This document shows positions 12,519 through 35,636 of a stretch of 64,000 bases of DNA, one piece after another. This DNA comes from Gammaproteobacteria bacterium (GTDB lineage Bacteria; Pseudomonadota; Gammaproteobacteria; Xanthomonadales; Wenzhouxiangellaceae): NCBI GenBank assembly GCA_021772975.1, contig JAJFKY010000016.1:248001-312000 (forward strand), read 5' to 3'. The translations under genes were made by a program, and so were the position numbers. A model generated the notes under the pieces. That model was not told the DNA's origin. It saw only the letters and a program-made list of their open reading frames with translations, and made no database searches. Within the stretch, counting starts at the first letter, position 1. Every line of letters starts with the position of its first letter.

Positions 12519-15500
12519 ATGAACAAGCTGACCAGGTTACTGGGACAAAAAAGGCTGGTAATGGCCACCGTGCTGTTACTGGCGATTGTCGGTATCAGCG
12601 CCTGGTTTAATATGAACCGGCAGGAAGACCCGGCCTTCCCGTATCGCTATGGCTTCGTCACCGTGGCTTATCCGGGCGCCGACGTGGATCAGGTTGAACG
12701 CCTGATTACCCAGCCGCTGGAAGAAGAACTGGCGCAGGTCGAATACGTGGATGAGCTGCGCAGCACCATCCGGGCCGGTTTTGCGCTGGTGGTGGTGGTG
12801 ATGCAGCAAAGCGTATATGACACCGACACCGCCTGGGATCGTATCCGGATAGCGGCGCAACGGGCGGAGGCCAGGTTTCCGCAGGGCGCGCAGCCGGTGC
12901 AGATTGATGATCGGATCATTGATGCCGCCACGGTGGTGGTGGCCATTACCGGCTCGAATGATCAGATCGCCATGCAGGATGCCGCCGAACGCCTGCGTGA
13001 CCGGATGTTAACGGTCAATGGGGTGGCAAGGGTGCGGCTGTTCGGACATACCGATGAGCAGGTCACTATCGCCTATGATGATGTTCAGGCGGAAACCCTG
13101 GGCCTGAGTCCAGCAGCGCTGGCGGCGCAATTGCAGGGCCGCAATCAGGTGGTGCCGGGGGGCTATCTGAATACCGCCGGCCGGCAACTGCAAATCCGTC
13201 CGCAAACCGATTTTGCCGACCTGGCGGCTCTGCAGGCCACACCGATTGCCCTGGGCAATGGCGTCACCCTGCCGCTGTCCAGTATTGCCGAGGTGCGCCT
13301 GACGCCCCGCGAACCGGCGCGGGAGACCGCCTGGCTGGGTAATCAGCGCGCGGTGGTGGTGGGTATCATCGGTCAGAACGATTCGCTGAATGCTGAATTT
13401 TTTGGCCGGCAGATACGTGCCCAGGTAGAAGAACTGCGGCCGTTGTTTGCACCGCTGGAAATCAGTGAGCTGTTTTTTCAGCCGGACCGGGTGCACGAGC
13501 GCTTAAGCGAGCTGGGCGGTAACCTGCTGGTTGGGGTACTTATCGTAGCGATCATTTTATTTCTGGTCATGGGCCTGCGGATGGGCCTGCTGGTGGCGTT
13601 GATGGTGCCGCTGGTGACCTTGACCTCACTGGCGCTCTACAGCCTGGGTGGTGGCGTGCTGCATCAGATGGCGGTGGCCGGGATGGTGATTGCGCTGGGG
13701 ATGCTGGTGGATAACGCGATCGTGATGGCGGAAAACATTCAGTGGCATATCGATCGGCACATCCCCCGGCCGCAAGCGGCCCGGCGTTCGGTGCGTGAAC
13801 TGGCCGGTCCCCTGGGAGCGGCCACGGGCACCACCGTGGCGGTATTTATTCCGATGGTACTGGCCAGGGGAGATACCGCGGATTTTACCCGCGCGGTGCC
13901 CAGCATGATTATTTTGATGCTGCTGGTCAGCTACGTGTACGCGGTGATGGTCACCCCGGTTATGGCGGGGTGGTTTTTAAGTCCGCCGAAAGCCCGCAAA
14001 ACGATTCCGCAGCGGGCCAATGAGTGGCTGGGCAGACAGGCTCGAAGTGTTGGCCGGCTGGCGGTGGATTATTCGCCGGTGGTATTGCTGGGCGCGGTCG
14101 GGTTTCTGGTGCTGGCGGCGATTCTGAGTGGCGGCGTCAGCCGCAACTTCTTCCCGGATACCGACCGTAACCAGTTTATTGTGGATGTGTATTATCCGGA
14201 AGGCACGCCGATCAGCGAAACCACCGCGTTTGCCCTGCAACTGGCCAATGAAATGCGCACGCAGCCCGGTGTCCAGCAGACTTATACCTTCACCGGCAAT
14301 AGTGGACCCAAGTTCTATTACAACCTGAATGAGACGCCGCGCTCGCCCTATCTGGGCCGGGTTATCGTACAGGCCGACGATGTCAGTGATATCGGACCGC
14401 TATCGGACTGGGTGCGCGCTCAGAATGACAGCCGCTGGCCGCAGGTGCAGCTGGTGCCACGCCGGCTGGAGCAGGGGCCGCCGACACCAGCGCCGGTGGA
14501 AGTGCGGATGCTGGCGGACGACTGGAGTACGCTGCGTGAAGGCATTGAGCAGGTCACGCGAATCCTGCGGGATATCGACGGCACGGTGGACGTCCGTCAT
14601 GACATGGGGATCGGGGTACCCACGCTGCGTATCAACGTTGACGACCGCCGGGCCCAACCGGCCGGTGTCACGCGGGAACTGATTGGTCAAAGTCTGGCCC
14701 GCCAGAGCCAGGGTTTGCGGATTGGTACCTTCCGGGCCGAACGTGACCCGATGCCGATTGTATTGCGCTCAGCCCGCGGCGAGTACTTTCCCGCCGACCA
14801 GATAGCCGCGGTGCAAAGCTGGAGCACGGATGGTGCAACCCGGTTGCCGATACTGGGTTTGAGCGAGCCCGAATTGATCTGGCAGCCGGCGGTCAGGCAT
14901 CATTTTAATCTGCAACCCTCCAGCACCGTATTCAGTGAATTGCTGGATGGGGTGACCTATGCTGGAGTGTATGCGGAGCTGGAGCGCCGTCTGCAACAGA
15001 CACCCCTGCCGCCGGGCGTGAAAATTTCCGCCGGGGGCGCGCAGCGTTCCTCCGGACAGGCCAACAGTGCGTTGTTCAGTACCTTGCCGCTGGGTCTTAT
15101 TCTACTGCTGTTTTTTCTGTTGCTGCAGTTCAACTCCTTCCGCCGGGTCGGCCTGGTTCTGGTTACCGTACCGCTGGCACTGGCCGGGGTGGTGCCAGGT
15201 CTGTTGCTGACCGGGTATCCGTTTGGCTTTATGGCTTTGCTGGGGGTGATCGCCTTGATCGGGATCGTGGTCAATAACGCCATCGTGCTGCTGGATGTGG
15301 TGGATCAACATCTGCAGGATGGCGAAAACCTGCGGCTTGCGATCATTGAAGCGGTGGCCCGCCGCACCCGTCCGGTGTTACTGACCACGGCCACCACCGT
15401 GGCCGGTCTGCTGCCACTGACGGCAACTCAGAGCACATTGTGGCCACCTATGGCGTGGACGATTATTTCCGGTTTGCTGGTTTCAACCTTGTTCACTTTG

Positions 15501-15539
15501 GGCGTGGTGCCCGCTTTGGCCAGATGGGTATTGCGCTGA
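12519..15539 (+). CDS. RND efflux pump permease (AcrB/MexB-like superfamily)
   Basis: A 1006-residue inner-membrane proton-driven transporter. It has the duplicated RND plan: one N-terminal membrane helix, a large periplasmic loop (about 30-330), six helices (about 335-470 and following), a second N-terminal-type helix (about 525), a second loop (about 550-830), and six C-terminal helices. The proton-relay region GMLVDNAIVMAENI (about 395-408) has the conserved Asp. Its counterpart in the second half, GIVVNNAIVLLDVV, lacks one. It is slightly shorter than AcrB and may belong to the group found with TetR-regulated two-gene operons. The substrate is unknown. The gene begins one base after the adaptor stop. 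Confidence 0.92.
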   Translation: MNKLTRLLGQKRLVMATVLLLAIVGISAWFNMNRQEDPAFPYRYGFVTVAYPGADVDQVERLITQPLEEELAQVEYVDELRSTIRAGFALVVVVMQQSVYDTDTAWDRIRIAAQRAEARFPQGAQPVQIDDRIIDAATVVVAITGSNDQIAMQDAAERLRDRMLTVNGVARVRLFGHTDEQVTIAYDDVQAETLGLSPAALAAQLQGRNQVVPGGYLNTAGRQLQIRPQTDFADLAALQATPIALGNGVTLPLSSIAEVRLTPREPARETAWLGNQRAVVVGIIGQNDSLNAEFFGRQIRAQVEELRPLFAPLEISELFFQPDRVHERLSELGGNLLVGVLIVAIILFLVMGLRMGLLVALMVPLVTLTSLALYSLGGGVLHQMAVAGMVIALGMLVDNAIVMAENIQWHIDRHIPRPQAARRSVRELAGPLGAATGTTVAVFIPMVLARGDTADFTRAVPSMIILMLLVSYVYAVMVTPVMAGWFLSPPKARKTIPQRANEWLGRQARSVGRLAVDYSPVVLLGAVGFLVLAAILSGGVSRNFFPDTDRNQFIVDVYYPEGTPISETTAFALQLANEMRTQPGVQQTYTFTGNSGPKFYYNLNETPRSPYLGRVIVQADDVSDIGPLSDWVRAQNDSRWPQVQLVPRRLEQGPPTPAPVEVRMLADDWSTLREGIEQVTRILRDIDGTVDVRHDMGIGVPTLRINVDDRRAQPAGVTRELIGQSLARQSQGLRIGTFRAERDPMPIVLRSARGEYFPADQIAAVQSWSTDGATRLPILGLSEPELIWQPAVRHHFNLQPSSTVFSELLDGVTYAGVYAELERRLQQTPLPPGVKISAGGAQRSSGQANSALFSTLPLGLILLLFFLLLQFNSFRRVGLVLVTVPLALAGVVPGLLLTGYPFGFMALLGVIALIGIVVNNAIVLLDVVDQHLQDGENLRLAIIEAVARRTRPVLLTTATTVAGLLPLTATQSTLWPPMAWTIISGLLVSTLFTLGVVPALARWVLR

Positions 15540-15589
15540 GTGGTTTGCCGCTGACGATCAGTGTCAGCACATCAGCGGAATAAAAACGA

Positions 15590-15720
15590 TATAATCCAAG
15601 GTCTTGCGTTTCGCGGTTGCGGAATCTTTAAGCAGGCATGGTTCGAAACCATGTACTGAGTTGCTGATGATTCAGAGTAGATTTTAAGGATAAAACCATC
15701 TCAATTAAGGATAAAACCAT
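15590..15720 (+). promoter_or_regulatory. Leader of the 578-residue secreted protein gene, with a duplicated ribosome binding region
   Basis: A TATAAT box (15590-15595) lies 123 bases before the ATG, without a good -35. The leader contains a tight hairpin (CATGG-TTCGAAA-CCATG, 15637-15653). It ends with two 16-base copies of TTAAGGATAAAACCAT, at 15684-15699 and 15705-15720. The second supplies the AAGGA ribosome binding site and the first two bases of the ATG. In the first copy the following base is C, so it makes ATC and not a start codon. Confidence 0.4.
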
Positions 15721-17455
15721 GTCACAAGCTTTCATTCAAGGCACTTCACGATTGGCTTTAGCAGTGGTTGCCGGGTTGGCCGCCATTATCGTCAGTGCGC
15801 AAACACCAGGTAACCAGCCCCCGGTCATTCAAGGCGCGCAAACCATTGGCGGAACAGTGATACCCGCCAGGGTCAGTGTAGATATGTATAGCTTGCCTGA
15901 AGTCAGTCTGTGGCAGCCTGGCGATCCCATTCGATTCAAGCCGCCACGCCAACAGACGCCCCCTCAAAGCGGTATTGTGACCAACCCCGCGCCGCGTGGT
16001 TTTGATCTGGACCCACTGCTTGCGGCACAGTTAGCGGTGGCGGGGCCAATTGATGGCGGCGGGATCGAAAACCCGATTCTGAATCAGGATGGCTTTGCCC
16101 AAAGTGGCAGCCCATCGGATGTGATTGCGGATGTTGGGCGACAATTTTATATCCAGGTAGTGAATGCCACCCCGGTTAGAATCTTTGACAAGATCACCGG
16201 TGTAGAGGAACTGACATTTGAGTTATCTGACCTGGCCGCGGGCAGCGGGACCGGCTGTGGTGGTGGTATCGGCGACCCGGTGATTAACTTTGATCAACTG
16301 GCCGATCGCTGGGTGATCTCTGAATTCACCGGTAATTCGATCTGTTTTTATGTATCCGAGCAAACTGATCCGACCACCGGTAACTGGTTTGTTTATGAGT
16401 TTATCTCCGCATCGGGAACCTTGCCTGATTATTTTAAAGTGGGTGTCTGGCCGGATGCTTATTATGTTGGTGTCAACGATGTATTTATGGGCGGGCGCAC
16501 CAACTATGCCCTGGATCGCGACAATATGATTCTGGGTAACCCGGCACGTCCGGCACAGGTATTTGTATCACTACCGGAATTGGGTGGTTTTAACTTCCAG
16601 TTGCTGCAACCCGCCGATCTGGATGGCACCAGTCTGCCGCCTGATGGTGCACCAGGCATCTTGCTGCGTCATCGTGATGATGAGGTGCATAACACCACAG
16701 GCGTTGATCCCAACGCGGACTTTATCGATTATTTTGAGTTCAGCGTCGATTTTGAAACACCCGCCAACAGCACTTTTTCCGGTCCATTTTTGATTCCGGT
16801 AGCGGAGTTTGATTCGGATTTATGCGGGACTTTTAACTTTAATTGTGTCGATCAGCCAGGCAGCGGCATAATACTGGATTCGGTAGCCGAACCAATTATG
16901 TGGCGGGTGCAATATCGCAGCTTTGACGATCAACAGGTGATGGTGGGCAGTTTCACCGTGGATGTTGATGGCAATGATCTGCATGGTGCACGCTGGTTTG
17001 TGATGCAGCGTGACCCCGGTGTTGCCACAGCAGGCTGGACAGTGCAACAAGAGGGTATTTATGCCTTGGGTGACACCACCAATCGATGGCTGCCAAGCAT
17101 CGGCATGGATCAATCAGGCAATATTCTGATGGGAGTCAGTGCCACTGATCCGGTAACCGGTGTGTTCCCCAGTATCCGCTACTCTGGCCGCCTGGTGGAT
17201 GACCCTTCCGGCACGTTGCCGCGCGGTGAGTTTAGCTTGATAGAGGGCAGCGCACCGAATAGCACCACCGGTCGCTGGGGTGATTATGCTTCTGTCACCG
17301 TCGACCCGGATGATGATTGCACCTTTTATCTAAGTACCGAATACAACGAAACCACTACTTCCAGTACGCGTTTTGGTTCATTCCGTTTTGATGCCTGTGG
17401 CGAACTGGACGAGGAATTCTTTCAGGATGGCTTCGAGGATATCCTGATTCCTTAA
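15719..17455 (+). CDS. Secreted protein with C-terminal DGFE tail
   Basis: A 578-residue exported protein with a signal peptide (about 1-28, ending VSAQ). It is a close paralogue of the product of 51016-53958. Both begin their mature part with (V/T)IQGA(Q/D)T(I/L)GG, carry SLWxPGDPIR, then a core with GDPVINFDQLADRWVISEFTGNSICFYVS, LPDYFKVGVWPDAYYVG and LRHRDDEVH, and both close the core with WGDYASVTVDPDDDCTFY followed by a short tail. The tail here is EEFFQDGFEDILIP. The core resembles the 731-residue protein at 6595-8790 more distantly. No enzyme motif is visible. A secreted beta-propeller-like role at the cell surface is plausible but unproven. Confidence 0.8.
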   Translation: MSQAFIQGTSRLALAVVAGLAAIIVSAQTPGNQPPVIQGAQTIGGTVIPARVSVDMYSLPEVSLWQPGDPIRFKPPRQQTPPQSGIVTNPAPRGFDLDPLLAAQLAVAGPIDGGGIENPILNQDGFAQSGSPSDVIADVGRQFYIQVVNATPVRIFDKITGVEELTFELSDLAAGSGTGCGGGIGDPVINFDQLADRWVISEFTGNSICFYVSEQTDPTTGNWFVYEFISASGTLPDYFKVGVWPDAYYVGVNDVFMGGRTNYALDRDNMILGNPARPAQVFVSLPELGGFNFQLLQPADLDGTSLPPDGAPGILLRHRDDEVHNTTGVDPNADFIDYFEFSVDFETPANSTFSGPFLIPVAEFDSDLCGTFNFNCVDQPGSGIILDSVAEPIMWRVQYRSFDDQQVMVGSFTVDVDGNDLHGARWFVMQRDPGVATAGWTVQQEGIYALGDTTNRWLPSIGMDQSGNILMGVSATDPVTGVFPSIRYSGRLVDDPSGTLPRGEFSLIEGSAPNSTTGRWGDYASVTVDPDDDCTFYLSTEYNETTTSSTRFGSFRFDACGELDEEFFQDGFEDILIP

Positions 17456-23075: not shown

Positions 23076-26000
23076 TTATTTCGTTTGGCGCTTGCGCAGA
23101 CCGATCAATGCGGCCAGCGGCAACAGCAGTGCCATCAGCCATTTACCGAAGGCGGTCATGGCGGGAACTTCGATCGGTTCTTCAGGTACAACCTGGCCAT
23201 CGACCACATCAACCGTTGATTGCTGTTCGCCATCTTCAGTACCGTTGGTCACGCCGATGATATCCACAATAATGGTTTCATCCGGATCATTGATACCATC
23301 ATCGACCGCGTTAATGGTCGCTATGCCCGAGGTCTGACCAGCGGGGATCAGCACCATGTCTGTATCCACGGTGTAATCATCGGGCATCACCGCGGTGCCG
23401 GAGAAACCGAGCTGCACGGTGACATCCTGGCCGGACGGCGTATTCAGGCTGACGATGATTTGCGAAGTCTGACCTTCGTTTACCATCAACGCCGAGACAT
23501 CCAGGCTGACCAGTGGTGGTTCATCATCATCAGTGATGGTGGTGCTGACCTGCTGTACGCCGTTTTCGACGCCGTTGGTCACGGTATCGATATCCACCAG
23601 CACCTGCTCGTCGGGCTCATCCAATGCATCATCCACAGCCGTCAGCATGATGTCCGCCGAGGTCATACCCATCGGGATGACAATGCTGGCTGGTGCAGTG
23701 AAGTCGCTCATATCGGCGGCACCGGAAAATGCCAGATTGACGGTGATGTTCTGCGTGCTCGGATTGGACAGGGTGGCGGTAATGGTCGCCATGCCGCCGT
23801 TTTCAGCGATCGGATCACCTGCCAGTGACAGGGTGACGCTGGGCACGCCTTTGTCGTCTTCGATCACACCGTTAAGCTGAGGAAGACCACCCAGGGTGCT
23901 TGACGGTACCTGTAGCAGGTCCACGCTGAAGGGCTCGTCACCTTCACTGATATTGTCATCAATGCCGGTGATGGTGGCCGGAGCCTGTGACATCAGACTG
24001 CCGTCATTCGGAATAAACAGCGTATCGCTGTCGACGCTGAAGTCGGTATCCAGAATGGCTACGCCCGAGAAGCTCAAATCAACAAACAACGAGATGCCGG
24101 CTGATTCCGTCAACAGAGCATCAATGGTACCCATGCCACCGGGTTCGGGAATGGGGCTGCCGGTCAAACTGACGGCCAGATTGGGATTGGGCGTGGCTTC
24201 AAATGCACCGATATCGGTTTGTGTGCCGATGGTGCGCGGGAAGCCGCTCAGGCGTTGATCATCGACCGCGGCGGCGAAGTTCAGACCGCTATTGATCGCC
24301 GGACTGCCGGCCATCAGCGCGTGGGTCTGGGTTGGTCCACCATTACTGGCCAGTGCGCCCAACAAGGGATCGGCATTCAAAATATTAAAGCCGTCGTCAC
24401 TAATCGGAGCACCGGCGTCATCATCTATCAGGCTGAACAGCACCCCAAAGTTGCCACCTTCGCCAGCCAGATTGGCATTGCCCGAACCGGAGGTATTGCC
24501 GGCGATGATGGAACTGCCGATGGTGACGTTATAGGCATTGCCGCCACGCAGGTAAATTTCGATATCAGCATAGATGCCACCCCCATAGCGGCTGGCGGTG
24601 TTGTTGGCAATGGTGCTGCTGGCAATGAAAATGCTGTCCGCGCCTGGCGAAAAGATTCCGCCACCGTCGCCTTCACTGGCCATATTGCCTGAGATGGTGG
24701 AGTTGCGAATGAGTATGGAGCCATCTTCGGAATAGGCATAAATGCCACCAGCATTGCCGGTGCTGGCGGTATTGCCGGAGATGGTGGTGTTATCGATGGT
24801 CAGCGCATAATTGCCTTCAGGGTCGACGAAGCGCATACCACCGGTATCATCATCGGCGCTGTTGCCGGCAATCACGGAGTCGGAAATGCTGACACTGCTG
24901 TAGAAGCCGTAGTCGCCGCCCCGCACAGAGCCATCAACACTGCGTCTGTTCTGATAAGTCGATAACAGCAGGCCACCCACATTACCATCACTGGTGTTGT
25001 TGGTGATCCGGGTATTGTGGATTCGGATCGGGGCGTTGACATCCGCCAGCGTCATGGCGATACCGCCGCCGATGCCTTCGCCTACCGAGTTGGCGGTAAA
25101 GCTGGAGTCAATAATATTGATGGCCTCATAACGATTACCACTCACCGCCAGGCCACCACCATAGTTTTCCGCGCTGTTGCCGGAAAAAGTGCTGTTAACA
25201 ATATTGAGTGAAGCGTACTGCGCATCCAGCAGCACGCCACCGCCATCACCATACATGGAGGTGTTGTTGCTGATGGTGCTGTCAACAATGGACAACGCGG
25301 TACCATCCTGGTCGGCGTAAAATGCAATGCCGCCGCCATCCTGATAAGCGCTGTTGTTATCGATCAGACTGTTGTTAACGATATGCAGCCGTGAACCCTC
25401 TTCGCCGATGAATATACCGCCACCCCGGCCTTCTTCATTCATTGCCGTGTTGTAGCTGACCGTAGTGTTATCCAGCGTCAGGCTGTCGCTATAGCCTTGC
25501 AATTCGTCAACATGAATGCCGCCACCATCTCCACCGGTGGTATTGCCAGTGATCAGGGAGTTGCTGATGCCGGCGGAGTTGGTCAGGTTCTCGATCAGAA
25601 TGCCGCCGCCGCCATAGCTGCCACTGTTATTGGAAATGGTGCCATTGTCGATGGCCAGAATGGCGCCGTCATCAATATGCACCCCGCCGCCGTAGTTGGC
25701 GGAATTATTATCGATGGTGCTATTGCGTACCACCAGCGCACCGGTGGTGACGTTGTTGCCAAAATAACCGGAATAGTCGTCCACAGAAATACCACCGCCA
25801 TTGCCACCCTCATAGCCGTTAGCGGTGTTGTAGCTGATGGTGGAGTCGATAACCCGCAGCACGCCATCATACTGGGCGATGCCGCCACCCGCATAAGCCT
25901 GGCTGTTGGTGATCAGGCTGTCGCGAACGGTCAGTTCGGCATTATTGGAATAAATGGCGCCGCCACTCTCACTGGTATAACCGTCGGTTATGGTCAAACC

Positions 26001-28517
26001 GACGATGTCAACCGACAGCAGATTGTAATAGGGATCGCCCAGATTGCCGCGCTGTGGCTTTCCGCCGCTATAGATTCTGAAAATACGCGATGCACCGCCT
26101 TCGCCACGGACCGGCTCCGGAGCAACAAAGCCACCACTGACGGTAATCACACTGGGGACAGGTGCATTGATAACGATATCATCGTTAATATCAATATCAC
26201 CGGAGGTCAGCGTAATGGTGCCGGACAGGCCTGCCTGAAATTCAACGACATCCAGTCCATAGGTGTTGTTTGAGTCATAAACGGCCTGGCGCAGACTGCC
26301 GGGACCGCTATCGTATAGATTGGTGACGGTTCGGGTCGCGGCCGGGAAGCTCAAAGCTGCGTCGGTGGCTGATTCTACCGCACCCATATCAGTCTGCAGG
26401 CCGACCATGCGGGCAAAGCCGGTGCCGCGCTGATCATTAGCGCTGGCTGCCGCGTTCAGGCCGGCATCAATCGCCGGGCTGCCGGTCATCAGGGCATGCG
26501 TCATGGTAGGGCCGCCATTGTCGGCCAGCGGACCCAGCATCGGGTCGGCGTAAAAAATATTGTTGTTGTTCTGATCCAGGCTGATACCGTCCGGGTCTTC
26601 AATCAGACTGAATTCCACATACAGATCAGTGCCACCCAGATCCGGGTTACTTTCGTAGGTGGTGTTATTGGCAATAATGCTGCCGCGGATCTGCAGGCCG
26701 CTGTCAGCGTTGTAGACACCGCCACCGCCACCGTAGGCATAGTTGCCGGTAATGGTGCTGTTATCGATCAGTGCTTCCCCATCTTCATGGGTCAGGAATA
26801 GGCCGCCGCCATATTCACCGGCACTGTTATCGGAGAAGGTGCTGTTTTTGATCAGCGGTGCACCGTCATCGGAATAAAGCCACAGACCACCGCCGCTTGC
26901 TTCCGCCGTATTGCCTGAGAAGGTAACATTGTCGATATTCACGCTGTAGCCGTCATCGTCGTACAGCCACATGCCACCACCTTCGCTGGCCTGATTGTCG
27001 GCGATGGTGGTATTGCGGATGACCAGGCTGGTGTACAGGCCGTCATCAAAGTAAAAATGCAGACCGCCGCCGTCATCACCCGCATAGTTGCCGATAAAGT
27101 CGCTGTCTTCAATCAAAATGGCCTGATGAATATCATCCACTTCGAGCATCAGACCGCCGCCTTCATTACTGGCGGTGTTATTGGAAACGACGCTGTTCTG
27201 AATGGTGATAAACCCATAGTGGGTGCCGGCACCACCGTCATAGTAAACCGCTATACCGCCTCCGCCACCGCTCTCAGCTTCATTGCCACTGACCGAACTG
27301 TTGCGAATCAGCAGGCTAGGTTCATCGGCATAGAAATGGATACCGCCGCCATAGCCTTCAGTCGCTGAATTGTTGTCGATATTGCTGTCTTCAATACGCA
27401 AAAGATCAGCCCGGCTATCGCTATTGAAGCGCACGCCGCCGCCTTCCTGGGCAGTATTGCCACTGATAACACTATTGTTGAGAATGCTTAAATTGCCATC
27501 CTCGGCAGCAATGCCACCACCACCACCATATTCGACATTGTTGTTGCTTATGGTGGTGTTATTGATTTCTACAACAGCACCGGCAGCGGTTCCCGAAACG
27601 CTGACCCCGCCAGCATAATCGGCGGTATTATTGCTGATGGTACTGTTGGCGATCAGCGCATTAACATAAACATCATCGAGTTCGATTGCTCCCCCGTTTC
27701 CGCCTGAGCTGTTGTCCATGAACTCGGAAGAGTCAATCACAACACTGTTGATATTTTGCGCTGAGACCGCGCCACCATCGTTACTGCTGTAATTGTAGGT
27801 AAAGCCGCTGCCGCTGATGCTAAGTCCGCCGCCATTGACAGCTACCGCACCGCCGTCTGAGTTGTTGGCACGGTTATCGTCGAAGGTGGAATCACTGATA
27901 TCGACAAATACGCCATTGCTGTACAGCGCTCCGCCGCTGCCGTTGCCGCTGGTGCTGTTATTGATCGTGACGTTGCGCAGGCTCAACCGGGTATTTTGCT
28001 GGTTGGCGCGAATGGCGCCACCATTGTCGTAATAGTAGCCGTTGCTCAGGGTAAGATCGCTGATCTCGGTAAACCCGGAGACCTCGCTGTTCTGTACATC
28101 AAAAATTCGTGAGCTTGAATTGGCATCGATGGTAATGACCGTTTCACCGGGACCCTGAATGGCCACGCTGTCATCAATATCGATTTCACCAGTGGTCAGC
28201 ATAATGGTGCCATTCAGACCGTTATTGAAACGTATGCCATCGGGACCGGGGTTGGCATTCGCATCCATCACGGCCTGGCGCAGACTGCCGGGGCCGGCGT
28301 CGTCCAGGTTATACACCTCAAACACATCGGCCTGGGCAATACCCGCAACCGTGACCAGCGAGCTGACCAGCATCGCGGTGGGCAGATTGCCCGCGCGTCT
28401 GACCGGTTGGCAATAACTCTCGCCCAACGAATGGGTAATGGCCTGCGACAGTGAATTACGAGGAATAGCGATAGGATTGATGGAGTTTTCACCAATCTGG
28501 ATATGCAATCTGCTCAA
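23076..28517 (-). CDS. 1813-residue beta-helix surface protein with Calx-beta repeats and IPTL-CTERM-like anchor
   Basis: A very large exported protein. After a long N-terminal leader (signal near residues 45-63), two similar halves (about 65-715 and 730-1410) each begin with [10 protein letters not shown] or [10 protein letters not shown], continue with dozens of right-handed beta-helix rungs such as NSTISGNTA...GGGI, and end with a choice-of-anchor Q-like closing stretch ([40 protein letters not shown]). About 1415-1765 hold Calx-beta-like domains ([28 protein letters not shown] and similar). The last 32 residues are an IPTL-CTERM-type tail: VPAMTAFG, a hydrophobic helix and RKRQTK. A surface or secreted adhesin-like role is likely. 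It has its own terminator. Confidence 0.88.
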
Positions 28518-28784: not shown

Positions 28785-29513
28785 CTAGCTTGCTGATCGT
28801 TCGGGTTTTTGCTGTTTGGGGTTGCGCCAGAACAGGTTGAAAGACACCGAAATGCGTGGTTCCGCGCGGTAGTGTGGCGCGACCATATGGGTAGCGTAAG
28901 CGGGGAAAATCAACAGCTTACCGTTGACTGGCCGATAACTGATGGTGGTAGGGCGGTCAAATCGCCGACCCATCGGCAGCGGGTTGAAAAACATCAGGTC
29001 ACCCTCGCGAATCGCACCCGCGGGCTGTTCCGGCTGGTCAATTTCCGCCTCCAGGTAAAACACGCCGGACCAGTCCGCCGGCAGATGCTGATGCGGCGCG
29101 TTCCAGGCGCCGGTATCACTGATGTTGCCCCAGCAGGCGGCCAGTTCGGGATAGCCCGGGCGCGTTTCGCCGTGGAAATGTTTGGCCGCGATGCGGGCAA
29201 TGTTCTGAATTTTGCTACACATCCAATGGATATGCGGGTTGTCCTGCATAAACAGATCTTCGTTGGAATGCCAGCCGCGCACATTGCTGCGATGCACGCC
29301 TTCATCCTGTTCCCGCAGCCTGGTCAGATAATCAATCAAGGCCTGCTGATGCTGCTCAAATTCGCGCACCATAATTGAATACACCGGCACGCCAAAGTGA
29401 CCGCTCTGTTCCAGCTGGCCCTGAGTTTGGCTGTTGCCGTCCTCATTGCCATCAGTCTGGGTTTGGGTCTGCTCTGAGGTGCGATTTTGACCGTTATCTC
29501 TGGGGGTGTTCAT
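28785..29513 (-). CDS. TIGR02466-like putative 2-oxoglutarate/Fe(II) oxygenase
   Basis: A 242-residue protein resembling the TIGR02466 family of putative 2OG-Fe(II) oxygenases. The C-terminal half carries NISDTGAWNAPHQHLPADWSG, a double-stranded beta-helix style stretch with candidate iron ligands, then KLLIFPAYATHMVAPHY and a closing RISVSFNLFW with the Arg expected to bind 2-oxoglutarate. I start it at 29513 because GAGG precedes that ATG and this gives a 7-base gap to the fusion gene. The longer open frame back to 29609 would overlap that gene. The N-terminal 40 residues are Gln/Thr-rich and probably disordered. It is downstream of, and likely cotranscribed with, the hydroxylase-sulfotransferase fusion. 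Confidence 0.78.
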   Translation of the reverse strand: MNTPRDNGQNRTSEQTQTQTDGNEDGNSQTQGQLEQSGHFGVPVYSIMVREFEQHQQALIDYLTRLREQDEGVHRSNVRGWHSNEDLFMQDNPHIHWMCSKIQNIARIAAKHFHGETRPGYPELAACWGNISDTGAWNAPHQHLPADWSGVFYLEAEIDQPEQPAGAIREGDLMFFNPLPMGRRFDRPTTISYRPVNGKLLIFPAYATHMVAPHYRAEPRISVSFNLFWRNPKQQKPERSAS

Positions 29514-29520
29514 AGCTGCC

Positions 29521-32500
29521 TCATTCAGCGCCAGGACTGGACGGATTGGCCGGCGTGATGGTGCGCTGGGCCTGCGGAACCTCACGCAGTGCGGCATCCG
29601 GCAAGACATACGAACTGGACAGCAGTTTGTTCATCGGTTCCAGAATTTCCGGAAAATGAATCCCGGCCAGCAACTGCACGGAAAAGATCTCCTGCACCGC
29701 GCCTTCAAACTTAAGATAGCCCACAGTCTGACCGGTTTTGATATTCATGACCCATACGCCGCAGGTGCGCTCTTTCAAGCGCTTGGTAATCGGAATACCA
29801 CTGAAAATCGCGCTTTCTCGCACCTGGGAAAGGCCGATAAAGGCGTAATCGCCGGCAAAGTCGATACCGCGGGTAAAACCGGGCACCAGGCCTACCGTCT
29901 CCAGTTTGCCAGTCTCGATATCCACTGTGGCCAGGCTGCCGTTACCCGATTCCAGGACCCACAGTTTGCCCTGATACCAGCGTGGTGAATGCGGCATGGA
30001 CAGCCCCTGGCAGATAATTTCATTGCTGTCGATATCGATCAATACCCCCCCATCGGCCTTGCTGGCGCGCCAGCCCTGCGGAGTATCGGCGGTGCCCAGG
30101 GCAGTAACATATCTGGGTTTATCCTCTACCAGACACAGACCATTCAGGTGACAGCGGTCTTCCGGGGCCAGTGCGGAGATAAACTTCGGGCGCCAGCGCG
30201 GCACGAAGCTGTATTCAGGGTCCAGGCTGCACAGGCATGAAAAGCGGGTATTGATAAACCACAGGTCCTTGCCCGCCCAGCACATTTCGTGAATATCTAT
30301 ATCGCCGGTGACGTGGGTGTTACGGGGCAGGTAGCAGGCATCGTATTTGCCGATCGGTTCCAGCTTTTTGGCTACATTGGGCATGTTACGGAAAAACTGA
30401 ATCTGATGACTGGTGCCCACCGCCATACGGCCACGATCAGCGGCCATTCCCATCGGTTTATCAAACATCTGAAAATGGGTATTGAGTTTGCCATTATCCG
30501 GACGCGCAACGATGAGCCGGCCGGCCTGATAGGTGGTGACCAGCATCGAGAAATTGGCTTTTTCCAGCATATTGGGAATATTGGACGTGTGCACGCTGGC
30601 CAATGGCGCATTAGGATCAGGTTGCATGGGTCCGGGCTGTGCCCGCCGTGTTTGTGCAGTCGGGGCCGGCTGAAAGGTCCGATCCAGGGCTCTGGCATAC
30701 TCAGTGATGCGTTGCTGGGTTGCCTCGGTGGCAGGCAATACCCGTTTGAGCTCGGGTTCGTTTTTCTTCCACTTGTCCGGGTCGGGTTTGGTCAGGGTAT
30801 GCCGGGATAACGCCAGGCCCTGTTCCAGCGACTGATCCCAGGCCACACCGGCAAACTGGCACAGGCGTTTGACCTGCTGTTCGGGCGCGGCAATCAACTG
30901 CTCATAACTGACTGCACAGATTCGCTCGCTGGGAATCTGTTGCAACGCATCCAGCATCGCATTGTGTGCGCTGAGCCACTGTTGCGTGGCGATTTCCTCG
31001 ACCGCTTTTTTGTTCAACCGCCGCCATTCGGAAATCAACAGCAACGACCAGGCCAGCTCATGGTCCCAGCCGGGTAAATCGGGATAAGTGACAAATTTTC
31101 CGGAACGCCAAGCATCCATGATACTGCTGATATTCTCACGCGGCTGGCGATACAGATATATATATTGTGCGTCCGGGAAAACCTTGTTGAAGAACGGAAT
31201 GCGCAAGGCATTCTTGGGGGTTTTTTCCAACATCCGCACCGGTCGATTGTGCGCTTTGGCGGCATTGCCGTTGCGGTCATGCAGGCGCGCCAGAAAACTG
31301 GCGCGGATGGTCTGGATGGTTTCCGGATCGGCATCTTCGGCATGCAGACGATTGGATTCGAAATCGCGGTTTTCCGGGTTCAGCTTGTCAATACGCTCAA
31401 TCAGATAATGGCTTTCACCGCCAATCGTATAGAGTTCTGGTGACCTGGCCAGGGTTTCAAATAACAGGGTGCTACCGGAACGGGGAGCAGCAACCACAAT
31501 CAATGGGCGATCCAGTTTATTGACTCGGCGCTGCTGTGCGGCTGGCCCGCGGGCTTGGGCGCCAGCCGGCGTATTCAGCAAATCAGGGTTCAGTGAAGGC
31601 TCGATCATGCCCTGGCGAATCATGGAGATCGGGTCCATGCCGTTGGGCAGCATGACTTTTTCCTGATGCGGCTGGAGCGCCTGAAGCAGCTCCTGGCGGG
31701 TCTGATCGTACATTTTGAACCCCGCCGCCTGCATGCCAAAACGCGACCACAAAGTCCGCCACTGCTGACGGAAGCGGACGGTGGCCTGCTCAATGGCTTC
31801 CACATGCCTCGCCGGGGCAGGATCAGCATGCCGCATGTCTGCCAGGATGGGGGCCAGCACACTGTCCTGCTCCCAGGGTGACATCACCAAAGGCGCGTTG
31901 ACGGTTTCCGTGGCCAGGTTCAGTTGCTGATCAGGTTGATAGTCAATTTTCTGCGGTTCAATCCGTGCCGGGATATTGATATGCGGCTGTGCAGCCTGTT
32001 TGACCAGATCCCAAAATCGCGCCGAGCCGACCGTATCAGCCACCAGGTGGATACGGGTAAATTCACTCGGGTTCTCGACCTTATGTTGTTTCCAGGTATC
32101 AAAAATCCAACTCTCGCCTTCACCCATGTGCACCGCTTGATCGCCGCAATGAAAACGCACATCCGGATTGGTCATAATCGGCACGTGTACGCGCACTCGC
32201 TGATGCCAGTAATAATTGGCGTCCATATGTCGCTGTACATTGGCGCGATCGGCAATCCGCATTAGCCGGGTGCGTCCGAATATGGTTGCAAACGACGCCA
32301 GCACCTGTTGTAGATAGGGGCACTTTTTCAGATGCGGCGTGGGCAGCATCGGGCCTTTCAGTGCATCATCACGCGGGTTGCCGTTGGCGGCGATCAGCAG
32401 CAGCGCATCGTTGCCTTTAAACCCCTGTGGATGCGGCATCCAGTCGTCCGGACCAAATTGGGCGACTTCTGCTTGCAGGCGTTTGGCATCAAAGCGAAGC

Positions 32501-32532
32501 GGGAGTTGGTAAAACTCGGTGTCCAGTCTCAT
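29521..32532 (-). CDS. Asp/Asn beta-hydroxylase, sulfotransferase and TIGR03032-type three-domain fusion
   Basis: A 1003-residue protein without signal peptide or membrane helix. Residues 1-170 match aspartyl/asparaginyl beta-hydroxylases: HMD (His102, Asp104), RVHVPIMTNP, GEGESWIFDTWKQH (His150) and an Arg at 160. Residues about 340-610 are a PAPS-dependent sulfotransferase with the 5'-phosphosulfate loop APRSGSTLLFETLARS (349-364) and a 3'-phosphate site around YLYRQPRENISSIMDAW. Residues about 650-985 match TIGR03032, an uncharacterised family that looks propeller-like (MLVTTYQAGRLIVAR, HEMCWAGKDLWFINTRFSCL, GLSMPHSPRWYQGKLWVLESG). The order implies hydroxylation and sulfation of one substrate recognised by the third domain, which is inference. 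It lies 44 bases after a lipoprotein gene. Confidence 0.88.
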   Translation of the reverse strand: MRLDTEFYQLPLRFDAKRLQAEVAQFGPDDWMPHPQGFKGNDALLLIAANGNPRDDALKGPMLPTPHLKKCPYLQQVLASFATIFGRTRLMRIADRANVQRHMDANYYWHQRVRVHVPIMTNPDVRFHCGDQAVHMGEGESWIFDTWKQHKVENPSEFTRIHLVADTVGSARFWDLVKQAAQPHINIPARIEPQKIDYQPDQQLNLATETVNAPLVMSPWEQDSVLAPILADMRHADPAPARHVEAIEQATVRFRQQWRTLWSRFGMQAAGFKMYDQTRQELLQALQPHQEKVMLPNGMDPISMIRQGMIEPSLNPDLLNTPAGAQARGPAAQQRRVNKLDRPLIVVAAPRSGSTLLFETLARSPELYTIGGESHYLIERIDKLNPENRDFESNRLHAEDADPETIQTIRASFLARLHDRNGNAAKAHNRPVRMLEKTPKNALRIPFFNKVFPDAQYIYLYRQPRENISSIMDAWRSGKFVTYPDLPGWDHELAWSLLLISEWRRLNKKAVEEIATQQWLSAHNAMLDALQQIPSERICAVSYEQLIAAPEQQVKRLCQFAGVAWDQSLEQGLALSRHTLTKPDPDKWKKNEPELKRVLPATEATQQRITEYARALDRTFQPAPTAQTRRAQPGPMQPDPNAPLASVHTSNIPNMLEKANFSMLVTTYQAGRLIVARPDNGKLNTHFQMFDKPMGMAADRGRMAVGTSHQIQFFRNMPNVAKKLEPIGKYDACYLPRNTHVTGDIDIHEMCWAGKDLWFINTRFSCLCSLDPEYSFVPRWRPKFISALAPEDRCHLNGLCLVEDKPRYVTALGTADTPQGWRASKADGGVLIDIDSNEIICQGLSMPHSPRWYQGKLWVLESGNGSLATVDIETGKLETVGLVPGFTRGIDFAGDYAFIGLSQVRESAIFSGIPITKRLKERTCGVWVMNIKTGQTVGYLKFEGAVQEIFSVQLLAGIHFPEILEPMNKLLSSSYVLPDAALREVPQAQRTITPANPSSPGAE

Positions 32533-32577: not shown

Positions 32578-33360
32578 TTAATTGTCATTATTCTGGTTGG
32601 CCTGTCTTTGCTGGCGGCGCTGTTGACGCAGTTGCTGACGTTGTTCCGGCGTGATTTCAGCTTTGACGATGGCTTTATCGAGTTCAAAATCCATCCATTC
32701 CAGGCTGGCAATTTCACCACCCTGTGCGGCCAGTTGCCGTAGTTGCTCCGCTGTCAGCGCCTCCAGCATATCCACAGTGGCGGCATGGCGTGCCTTTAGC
32801 CAGCGTTGCTCCAGTTCAGCGATATCATTCAGATTGTTTTCAAGTTGAGTAACGCTGCCGGCCTGTAATGCCAGCCGATTGGCCTCGTGCAGCGTTGACA
32901 GCTGCTGGGCCAGTTGCTTTTGTTCATCCAGCAATTGCTGCAGGCGACCGTCCAGGCTGGCGATTTGATCAGCTTCCAGATTCAGTGATTTATTGCCACT
33001 TTTTTTATTCCACCAGGATTTATTGGTCAGGCGTTGGATACGCTTTTGTTCACGCTGCGCGGCTTTTTCCGCTGGGGTTTTTGCTGGTTTGTCGGTCGGC
33101 TCAGCATCACGGCGAGCCTGACGGGCAGCTTCACGCTCGGCCTGGGCTGCCTGACGCCTGGCCTGGTTGGCTGCTTTGACTGCCGGATCGACCTCCGGCC
33201 GTGGCGGCCGTACAGGTTGTTGAGTTACCGTTGATTCAGCCACGGCAGCTTGATTTTCAGGTTCTGCCTCAGGTTGAGTATCTGTCGGTGAATCGCAGGC
33301 GGCTAATTGCAGCAACAGCAATAAAGCCGCGATGCGGATGCAGGCGTTCTGATTCGACAT
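32578..33360 (-). CDS. Lipoprotein with Ala/Arg-rich and coiled-coil regions
   Basis: A 260-residue exported protein of unknown family. The signal peptide ends in a lipobox (LLLLLQLAACDSP), giving Cys22 as the lipidated residue. Residues about 25-60 are Pro/Glu/Gln-rich, about 60-110 alternate Ala with Arg, Lys and Glu, and the rest is a long amphipathic helix region (LDGRLQQLLDEQKQLAQQLSTLHEANRLALQ) with an LTAEQLRQL and an ITPEQRQQLRQQ motif. The latter recall the LTxxQ motifs of Spy/CpxP-type periplasmic proteins, but overall similarity is weak. It lies between the PAPS synthase gene and the sulfotransferase fusion on the same strand and could be a structural or substrate component. Confidence 0.65.
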   Translation of the reverse strand: MSNQNACIRIAALLLLLQLAACDSPTDTQPEAEPENQAAVAESTVTQQPVRPPRPEVDPAVKAANQARRQAAQAEREAARQARRDAEPTDKPAKTPAEKAAQREQKRIQRLTNKSWWNKKSGNKSLNLEADQIASLDGRLQQLLDEQKQLAQQLSTLHEANRLALQAGSVTQLENNLNDIAELEQRWLKARHAATVDMLEALTAEQLRQLAAQGGEIASLEWMDFELDKAIVKAEITPEQRQQLRQQRRQQRQANQNNDN

Positions 33361-33696: not shown

Positions 33697-35430
33697 TTAC
33701 CGCTGTATTGCCAATAACCCCATGCACTCCAGCTCAATCAAAATCTTCTGTACCGATTCTTCCGGACTGAGTGATTGGGTATCCAGTTCCAGTTCAGGGT
33801 TTTCGGGTGCCTCGTACGGGTCGGAGATGCCGGTGAACTCCTTGATTTCACCGCGTCGCGCTTTGGCATACAGGCCCTTGCGGTCACGCTGTTCACATAC
33901 TTCCAGGGAAGTGGATACGTGAATTTCCAGAAAGCCGCCCAATGATTCGATCATGTCGCGAACCTGCTGGCGGGTGTGGCTGTAGGGTGCGATCGGGGCG
34001 CAGATCGCGACGCCACCGTTTTTGGTGATTTCCGAGGCCACGTAGCCAATCCGGAGAACATTAATATCCCGGTGCTCACGTGAAAAACCCAGTTCGCTGG
34101 ATAGATGCGTGCGCACGATATCACCGTCCAGCAGCGTCACCGGACGGTTACCGATTTCACGCAGCTTGATCATCAGCGCGTTGGCTATGGTGGATTTGCC
34201 GGCGCCGGACAGGCCGGTGAAAAAGATGGTAAAACCCTGACGGGCGCGTGGCGGATAGCTTTTCTGCAGTTCCTCGACCACTTCCGGAAAAGTAAACCAG
34301 TCGGGAATATCCAGTCCTTCATATAGACGGCGGCGCAGTTCGGTGCCGGACAGATTCAGCACTTTTTCACCTTCGCGGACTTCATCAGCGGCCACATATT
34401 CAGCCCGGTCCTGCACAAACACCATCATTTTAAAGGGCACCATTTCAATGCCGATCTCCTGCTGGTGCTCGCGCAACAGGGCCTGGGCGGCGAACGGATC
34501 ATAAAACGGCTGGCCCTGGCTGTCATTGCCGGGCCCGGCGTGGTCACGGCCGACAATCATGTGCGTACAGCCATAATTGCGGCGGATAATGGCGTGCCAG
34601 AGTGCTTCGCGTGGACCGCCCATGCGCATCGCCAATGGCAGCAGGCTTAGCTGGGTGGTGTCATCGGGGTAGCGTTGCAGGACTTTTTCATAGCAGCGCA
34701 CGCGGGTCAGATAGTCCACATCCCCAGGCTTGGTCATGCCCACCACCGGATGTATCAGCAGATTGGCTTCCGCCTGTTTGGCGGCGCTGAACGTCAGTTC
34801 CTGATGTGCGCGGTGCATCGGGTTGCGGGTCTGGAACGCGACAATCCGGCGCCAGCCCAGTTGTTTGAACAGTGCCTGCAGGCTGGCGGGGGTGTGACGC
34901 AGATGACGGCAATCATAATGATGCGGCAACTGCAGACCCCGCAGTTTGCCACCCAGGTACACCGGGCCGGTCTCGTTGAGCAGGTAATTAACGGCAGGGT
35001 GTTTGTGGTCATTGGTACCGAATACCTGTTCCGCCTCACGCTGCAGATCCGGTTGCCATTTTGATTCGATGCTCAACACCGCCAGTGCCAGACCTTCGCT
35101 GTCACGCAGGGTCAGCTGATCGCCGACGCCAAGCTCTGCAGCGAATTGTTCGCTCACGTCCAGCACCACCGGTATCGGCCACAGTGTGCCATCGGCCAGC
35201 CGCATATCCGCGCAGACACTGGCATAGTCCTGCTCGGTCATAAACCCCCGCAAGGGTGAAAACCCGCCGTTCAGCAGCAGTTCCAGATCACATAGATGCC
35301 GCTCACTCAGGGTCAGTGAGGGCAGGCTTCCGGCCAGCTCTTTCAGGTTCTGGTGTTCAGTGGGTGGCGCTAGTAAGTCCACCAGATGGCCGCCATGGGC
35401 GCTTAGCCGGTTATTGGGTTTGCTAGTCAC
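33697..35430 (-). CDS. sat/cysC: Bifunctional ATP sulfurylase / APS kinase (PAPS synthesis)
   Basis: A 577-residue enzyme that makes 3'-phosphoadenosine 5'-phosphosulfate from ATP and sulfate. Residues about 1-385 are an ATP sulfurylase: the QTRNPMHRAHQEL motif (a QxRNPxHxxH type) and GRDHAGPGN are intact. Residues about 400-577 are an APS kinase with the P-loop GLSGAGKST and DGDIVRTHLSSELGFS. I start it at the GTG (35428-35430), which has AGGACA upstream and gives VTSKPNNRLSAHGG. The longer ATG frame adds 59 unlikely residues that run into the neighbouring promoter region. PAPS can feed sulfate reduction or sulfotransferases. The sulfotransferase fusion downstream on the same strand suggests the latter here. 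Confidence 0.92.
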   Translation of the reverse strand: MTSKPNNRLSAHGGHLVDLLAPPTEHQNLKELAGSLPSLTLSERHLCDLELLLNGGFSPLRGFMTEQDYASVCADMRLADGTLWPIPVVLDVSEQFAAELGVGDQLTLRDSEGLALAVLSIESKWQPDLQREAEQVFGTNDHKHPAVNYLLNETGPVYLGGKLRGLQLPHHYDCRHLRHTPASLQALFKQLGWRRIVAFQTRNPMHRAHQELTFSAAKQAEANLLIHPVVGMTKPGDVDYLTRVRCYEKVLQRYPDDTTQLSLLPLAMRMGGPREALWHAIIRRNYGCTHMIVGRDHAGPGNDSQGQPFYDPFAAQALLREHQQEIGIEMVPFKMMVFVQDRAEYVAADEVREGEKVLNLSGTELRRRLYEGLDIPDWFTFPEVVEELQKSYPPRARQGFTIFFTGLSGAGKSTIANALMIKLREIGNRPVTLLDGDIVRTHLSSELGFSREHRDINVLRIGYVASEITKNGGVAICAPIAPYSHTRQQVRDMIESLGGFLEIHVSTSLEVCEQRDRKGLYAKARRGEIKEFTGISDPYEAPENPELELDTQSLSPEESVQKILIELECMGLLAIQR

Positions 35431-35527
35431 AGTATTGTCCTGTTGGCTGTTGTTGGTTGCCTGCTGCAGCAAGTATGCACAGGAGGTGGCGTAGTATAGC
35501 CAGAATTCAAGCCGGCTTATCCGAATG

Positions 35528-35558
35528 TTCACCCAATATTGCTCATCTTGGTTATAAT
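35528..35558 (+). promoter_or_regulatory. Candidate promoter of the FKBP gene
   Basis: A perfect TATAAT at 35553-35558 has a poor -35 (TTCACC, 35528-35533) at a 19-base distance. This is within the region between the divergent sat/cysC and FKBP genes. The -10 is convincing, but the -35 is only a guess. Confidence 0.4.
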
Positions 35559-35636
35559 GAAAGGTTATTGAGATATGTCTGGAACCCTGCGCGGATCCAC
35601 CAGTCACAGCCTGATAATTACAACTCGGAGTTCTTT

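Follow-up and report, generated by a model that had tools for sequence, protein, structure and literature searches.

The closest described parallel to the locus reported here is the HMW1C/HMW1 system, in which an adhesin is glycosylated in the cytoplasm by a GT41 enzyme (PMC3983070, PMC3012730). HMW1C modifies HMW1 first, and export through Sec follows, directed by an extended signal sequence on the adhesin (PMC3983070). Other relatives are known for single domains. L-proline cis-4-hydroxylase (PDB 4p7w) is a stand-alone enzyme that acts on a free amino acid, and Cpz10, described as closest to the Asp/Asn beta-hydroxylases, hydroxylates a nucleoside antibiotic precursor (PMC9814697). TIGR03032 (DUF4915, PF16261) has no recorded function and no paper naming the family was found in the literature searched. 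The same was true of the choice-of-anchor Q proteins, and nothing relevant was found on hydroxylase-sulfotransferase fusions, on TPR-sulfotransferases with TonB receptors or on FG-GAP proteins with O-GlcNAc transferases in cyanobacteria.

The locus lies in a 64,000-nucleotide stretch, referred to hereafter as the window, of a gammaproteobacterial contig (JAJFKY010000016.1, positions 248,001 to 312,000; Wenzhouxiangellaceae). It resembles HMW1C/HMW1 in that a putative soluble cytoplasmic enzyme is genetically linked to a large putative surface protein with a long N-terminal export segment, and some TIGR03032 proteins are fused to TPR-GT41. It differs in that HMW1C hexosylates, whereas the window fusion is predicted to hydroxylate and sulfate and has a candidate substrate only. 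Linkage of the enzyme gene to a large surface-protein gene was seen at the fusion loci and at TIGR03032 loci, but Pfam places no GT domain in the window protein, which would therefore be HMW1C-like in its working only and is not a member of that family.

Results

Domains of the fusion protein

The features discussed below are collected in Table 1. The three-domain protein is encoded by a single minus-strand reading frame; the plus strand of the same interval has several stops and is not open. No signal sequence was evident by eye. The preliminary description had proposed a fusion of an Asp/Asn beta-hydroxylase, a sulfotransferase and a TIGR03032 domain, and this architecture was borne out by Pfam and NCBIfam, in which PF05118, PF13469 and PF16261/TIGR03032 all matched above their curated cut-offs. 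The residues that it had named (H102, D104, H150, R160) are present at those positions, and the PAPS loop also lies where it had been placed, reading APRSGSTLL at 349-357. An assembly chimera is ruled out, as the same order is found at full length, with 48-76% identity, in four independent assemblies (L011, L012, L013 and L016). Foldseek with the full-length model matched the segments to L-proline cis-4-hydroxylase, to the CurM/OLS/TPST2 sulfotransferases and to beta-propellers, respectively. The full-length model is weak (pLDDT 75.7, pTM 0.42, H102-D104 loop below 50), and whether the active sites face each other cannot be read from it.

Table 1. Features of the fusion locus in the window.
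Feature	Coordinates	Strand	Details and evidence
Three-domain protein	29521..32532	-	1003 aa; span includes stop codon
PF05118-type 2OG/Fe(II) hydroxylase with helical extension, aa 1-301	31630..32532	-	H102-x-D104...H150...R160; Pfam, phmmer, Foldseek
PAPS-dependent sulfotransferase, aa 342-620	30673..31509	-	APRSGS 349-354, E373/H375, K437, YRQPRENISS 461-470
TIGR03032/DUF4915 domain, predicted six-bladed beta-propeller, aa 647-973	29614..30594	-	PF16261, TIGR03032, AlphaFold2, VIA-align
Second 2OG/Fe(II) oxygenase, TIGR02466/2OG-FeII_Oxy_5, ~242 aa	28785..29513	-	PF13759 1.6e-16, TIGR02466 77 bits
Candidate substrate, 1813-aa secreted beta-helix choice-of-anchor-Q protein	23076..28517	-	PF13229 7e-32, NF041518 2.4e-43, PF03160
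Bifunctional ATP sulfurylase/APS kinase (PAPS supply)	33697..35607	-	NF004040 950 bits

PF05118 matched residues 66-167 of segment 1 (E 3e-15; 56.8 bits against a cut-off of 22.6). The best match among solved structures was L-proline cis-4-hydroxylase (phmmer, E 1e-7), with which Foldseek agreed; it has sequence, predicted fold and the HxD...H...R residues in common with segment 1, which unlike it is part of a fusion. The name Asp/Asn beta-hydroxylase holds as far as PF05118 membership goes, but it is the label of the Pfam family only, and the nearest solved relative hydroxylates free L-proline. The NCBIfam equivalog model for the lipid A hydroxylase LpxO scored 12.5 bits against a cut-off of 500 (E 0.057). 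The iron triad (HxD...H) and the 2OG-binding Arg are kept in 14 of 15 aligned homologues, the exception being L014.

In segment 2, PF13469 (Sulfotransfer_3) matched residues 343-566 (E 9e-29), and PF13469 and PF00685 both scored above cut-off (101.7 and 45.6 bits). The 5'-phosphosulfate loop (PRSGS, 350-354) and the 3'-phosphate motif (461-470) are both present. Among solved structures phmmer retrieved the CurM sulfotransferase and human TPST1 and TPST2 (TPST2, E ~2e-6). Fold, PAPS loop and 3'-phosphate motif are common to this segment, TPST2 and CurM/OLS, from which the window sulfotransferase differs by its position behind a hydroxylase in one chain.

The third domain is a full-length, high-scoring member of TIGR03032/DUF4915: PF16261 matched residues 651-964 (444.9 bits, cut-off 35; E 2.1e-133) and TIGR03032 matched residues 647-969 (424.8 bits, cut-off 251.5; model positions 4-327 of 335). 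Unlike the family entry, it is fused to a hydroxylase and a sulfotransferase. AlphaFold2, run on this domain with an alignment of 17 sequences, predicted a six-bladed beta-propeller with high confidence (pLDDT 91.5, pTM 0.91). VIA-align ranked the YWTD propellers of megalin, LRP4, LRP6, LDLR and nidogen first (Z 22-24; about 240 residues, rmsd 2.8, ~10% identity), with strictosidine synthase and ASST next (Z ~20). The six-bladed architecture is shared with LRP6, LDLR and nidogen at Z ~24, but the TIGR03032 domain has no EGF module and stands in a cytoplasmic enzyme context, and a common fold does not establish a common function. A profile of the propeller found no significant relative among PDB sequences (best E 0.06).

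Forty-eight columns are invariant in the 17 sequences, many of them His, Arg, Glu, Asp or Asn, including H748, E791-D792-R793-C794-H795, R822, H848, R851 and R888. Going by predicted strand positions, several would sit where inner strands begin, close to the central channel, an arrangement known from propellers that catalyse reactions or bind ligands.

Conservation of the fusion and pairing of its enzymes

Besides the window, the full-length order was found in four gammaproteobacterial records of the genome collection, three from Alcanivoracaceae/Alcanivorax (L011, L012 and L016) and one MAG (L013) whose protein is 76% identical to that of the window. The L014 protein (Wenzhouxiangella) keeps segments 1 and 3 and has no sulfotransferase, and its segment 1 is without the HxD, the distal His and the Arg. 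The L015 protein (Woeseiaceae) has the hydroxylase and sulfotransferase only. A search of 369 genomes from the class with segment 1 and its extension added eight more strong homologues, at 40-47% identity. Hydroxylase-sulfotransferase fusions without TIGR03032 are now known at six loci (L015, L077, L078, L080, L082 and L084), while in L081 and L083 the hydroxylase stands alone, next to or not far from a TPR-sulfotransferase gene, and in L079 it stands alone at a contig end.

The two activities travel together, which suggests that they depend on each other. That they act together, as the preliminary description proposed, is supported by the six fusions, by the two loci linked to a TPR-sulfotransferase and by the joint loss in L014, where decay of the hydroxylase coincides with absence of the sulfotransferase as coupling predicts, albeit in one event. 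A tethered two-step reaction, in which the installed hydroxyl would be the sulfate acceptor, is plausible.

In a tree of the TIGR03032 domain the window protein groups with L013 and L014 and the Alcanivoracaceae fusions branch apart; because the joining nodes are weakly supported, one fusion origin cannot be told from two.

Two other hydroxylases deserve mention. Elsewhere in the window's genome (L064:9591-11307; contig C8, ~450.6-452.3 kb) an unfused PF05118 hydroxylase gene stands beside a sulfotransferase gene, the pair following directly on the cytochrome oxidase genes COX2-COX1-COX3; this is a further case of the two enzyme types occurring together. The stand-alone hydroxylase homologue of L079 (194-1324) ends in a SEC-C motif, CPCGSGRKYKRCH. 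This zinc motif also occurs at the C-terminus of SecA, but it was discarded as a link to Sec export, the match being clear in this one homologue only.

Genes around the fusion

The TIGR02466 oxygenase gene begins with an ATG at 29513, 7 bp past the fusion stop, and separates the fusion from the 1813-aa beta-helix gene. In L011 and L013 it overlaps the fusion by 4 bp; in L012 and L016 it is separated from the fusion by two beta-helix genes. The 1813-aa protein has an N-terminal signal-like segment, a Calx-beta domain and a C-terminal hydrophobic segment followed by LRKRQTK. All four other fusions (L011, L012, L013 and L016) have related beta-helix genes beside them, with three at the L011 locus and two each at L012 and L016.

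Directly upstream of the window fusion (32578-33360, minus strand) is a gene whose 260-aa product is lipoprotein-like and rich in Gln, Arg and Ala; it belongs to no clear family and has a homologue in L013. L011 has an additional single-domain TIGR03032 gene (14847-16100) between two beta-helix genes; it is close kin of the fusion's propeller and looks like a recent duplication of that domain without the enzymes.

The ATP sulfurylase/APS kinase gene lies ~1.2 kb upstream of the window fusion and is also present in the L013 neighbourhood, the only two fusions so linked. It was the sole APS kinase found in the window's genome and for this reason may be general-purpose, which weakens it as proof of a dedicated pathway.

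Among the relatives without the propeller, L077 has a beta-helix neighbour. L080, L081 and L083 lie near TPR-sulfotransferase and TonB receptor genes with no beta-helix gene, and for this reason the substrate may be a molecule of a different kind.

The beta-helix proteins were compared for hints of the acceptor. Linked and unlinked proteins showed no consistent enrichment of acceptor residues. Tyr made up 3.5-4.2% of the linked proteins in the window and L013 genomes against 0.3-1.7% of the unlinked ones in the same two genomes, but the difference was absent in Alcanivoracaceae, and the hint was dropped as inconsistent between lineages. The linked proteins end in a hydrophobic segment followed by Arg/Lys, and the profile-detected unlinked proteins of the window and L013 genomes end in IFxDGFE-like or similar acidic tails. 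This tail is not diagnostic of linkage, since unlinked Alcanivoracaceae proteins also have the hydrophobic and Arg/Lys end.

Neighbours and fusion partners of TIGR03032

Of 274 genomes sampled from the window's class, 17 had TIGR03032, 14 of them with scores above the cut-off; in the class to which the Anabaena locus belongs, 28 of 96 sampled genomes had it, 25 with scores above the cut-off. Among 25 long members TPR repeats occur in 16, GT41 in 6, GT2 in 4, GNAT in 4 and a hydroxylase plus sulfotransferase in 5. In L051 (3141-7788) a TPR-GT41 gene, O-GlcNAc-transferase-like, is flanked by two TIGR03032 genes. In L062 (993-7298) beta-helix genes flank an APS kinase gene and the TIGR03032-TPR-GT9-like gene next to it, a second link of TIGR03032, sulfation and beta-helix proteins.

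A neighbour was scored as a repeat protein if it had at least 300 aa and at least 25% Gly+Asn+Asp and lay within 2.5 kb of the TIGR03032 gene. Such a neighbour was present at 27 of 46 loci. Within the same stretches 35 of 116 near genes (30%) met the composition limits, compared to 8 of 153 far genes (5%; Fisher p=4.9e-8, neighbours at one locus being not fully independent). The 19 loci negative by this composition test include some at contig ends, and one of them, L056, does have beta-helix frames. Domains in 26 scanned neighbours were FG-GAP (13), choice_anch_Q (10), RTX (6), Big_9 (5), Calx-beta (4) and cadherin (3-4); nine further neighbours, scanned singly, had FG-GAP, cadherin or Big_9. 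From positions in 20 genomes, with matches merged into genes by hand, a choice_anch_Q gene was near TIGR03032 in 8 of the 14 genomes having any (0.26 expected at random). After close lineages were collapsed the count was 5 against 0.22 expected (P=3.6e-6).

Discussion

We tentatively take the fusion to be a cytoplasmic enzyme that modifies a co-encoded surface protein by hydroxylation and PAPS-dependent sulfation, a reading that we place somewhat short of probable. The propeller would dock on the repeat protein while this is still nascent or unfolded; the likeliest partner is the 1813-aa beta-helix protein encoded two genes downstream. With Fe(II), 2-oxoglutarate and O2, the PF05118 domain would hydroxylate a side chain, a chemistry suggested by the family and the intact HxD/H/R residues, and the sulfotransferase would move sulfate from PAPS, supplied by the nearby ATP sulfurylase/APS kinase, onto a hydroxyl, plausibly the newly installed one. 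Both PAPS and 2-oxoglutarate are found in the cytoplasm. Once modified, and thereby more acidic, the protein would be exported and anchored at the surface, and the TIGR02466 oxygenase may be a second modifying enzyme for the same substrate.

The surface protein might also be modified at separate sites by the two catalytic domains, for example with one residue type hydroxylated and Tyr, Ser, Thr or a glycan sulfated, and no hydroxyl relay. The match of segment 2 to human TPSTs, in sequence and by Foldseek, and the Tyr-rich linked proteins of the window and L013 favour such an arrangement, but Alcanivoracaceae show no Tyr difference, and the joint loss in L014 and the repeated fusion suggest dependence. 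We regard separate sites as fairly unlikely.

Also unlikely, in our judgement, is a small molecule or lipid substrate (a free amino acid, a peptide natural product or an aminolipid) that is hydroxylated and then sulfated, with the propeller as a third enzyme or a binding domain. The best solved relative of segment 1 does act on L-proline, Cpz10 is a precedent (PMC9814697), some relatives adjoin TonB receptors, and six-bladed propellers can be enzymes, as the fold matches to strictosidine synthase and ASST illustrate. Yet in several phyla the propeller family is repeatedly linked to secreted repeat proteins of large size, and it is fused to GT41/TPR; the LpxO model matched weakly, and the neighbours examined included no recognisable biosynthetic cluster.

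That TIGR03032 is the main enzyme, with the hydroxylase and sulfotransferase as lineage-specific accessories, is improbable: most of the members found do have reading frames with no room for further large domains, or are joined to other enzymes, and the invariant columns fall where predicted inner strands begin or just ahead of them, as they do in catalytic propellers, but no known enzyme matches the domain significantly in sequence and the top-ranked fold matches are receptor YWTD propellers.

Within the preferred reading, cytoplasmic modification of the linked surface protein, substrate recognition by TIGR03032 fits the predicted fold, the mix-and-match enzyme fusions and the linkage to surface-protein genes; an active site would explain the invariant His, Arg and Glu residues equally well. 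A broader proposal, which we consider doubtful as a whole, is that TIGR03032/DUF4915 serves as the targeting propeller for a widespread, undescribed family of modifying machines in the cytoplasm. These would act on secreted repeat proteins of large size, whether FG-GAP, beta-helix or cadherin-like, and their chemistry could be exchanged between O-GlcNAc-type GT41, acetylation and hydroxylation-sulfation. In the window's lineage a hydroxylate-then-sulfate relay would yield a sulfated hydroxy-amino acid. We know of no description of a sulfated hydroxy-amino acid in proteins.

The main new content of this work is the genetic and structural case for TIGR03032/DUF4915 as a propeller module of surface-protein modification, of which the fusion would be the hydroxylation-sulfation version. 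For an uncharacterised family this supplies a fold prediction, candidate substrates and a role that can be tested. If the proposal is true, one propeller domain would steer modular bacterial enzymes that decorate adhesin-like surface proteins, including by oxygen-dependent hydroxylation-sulfation.
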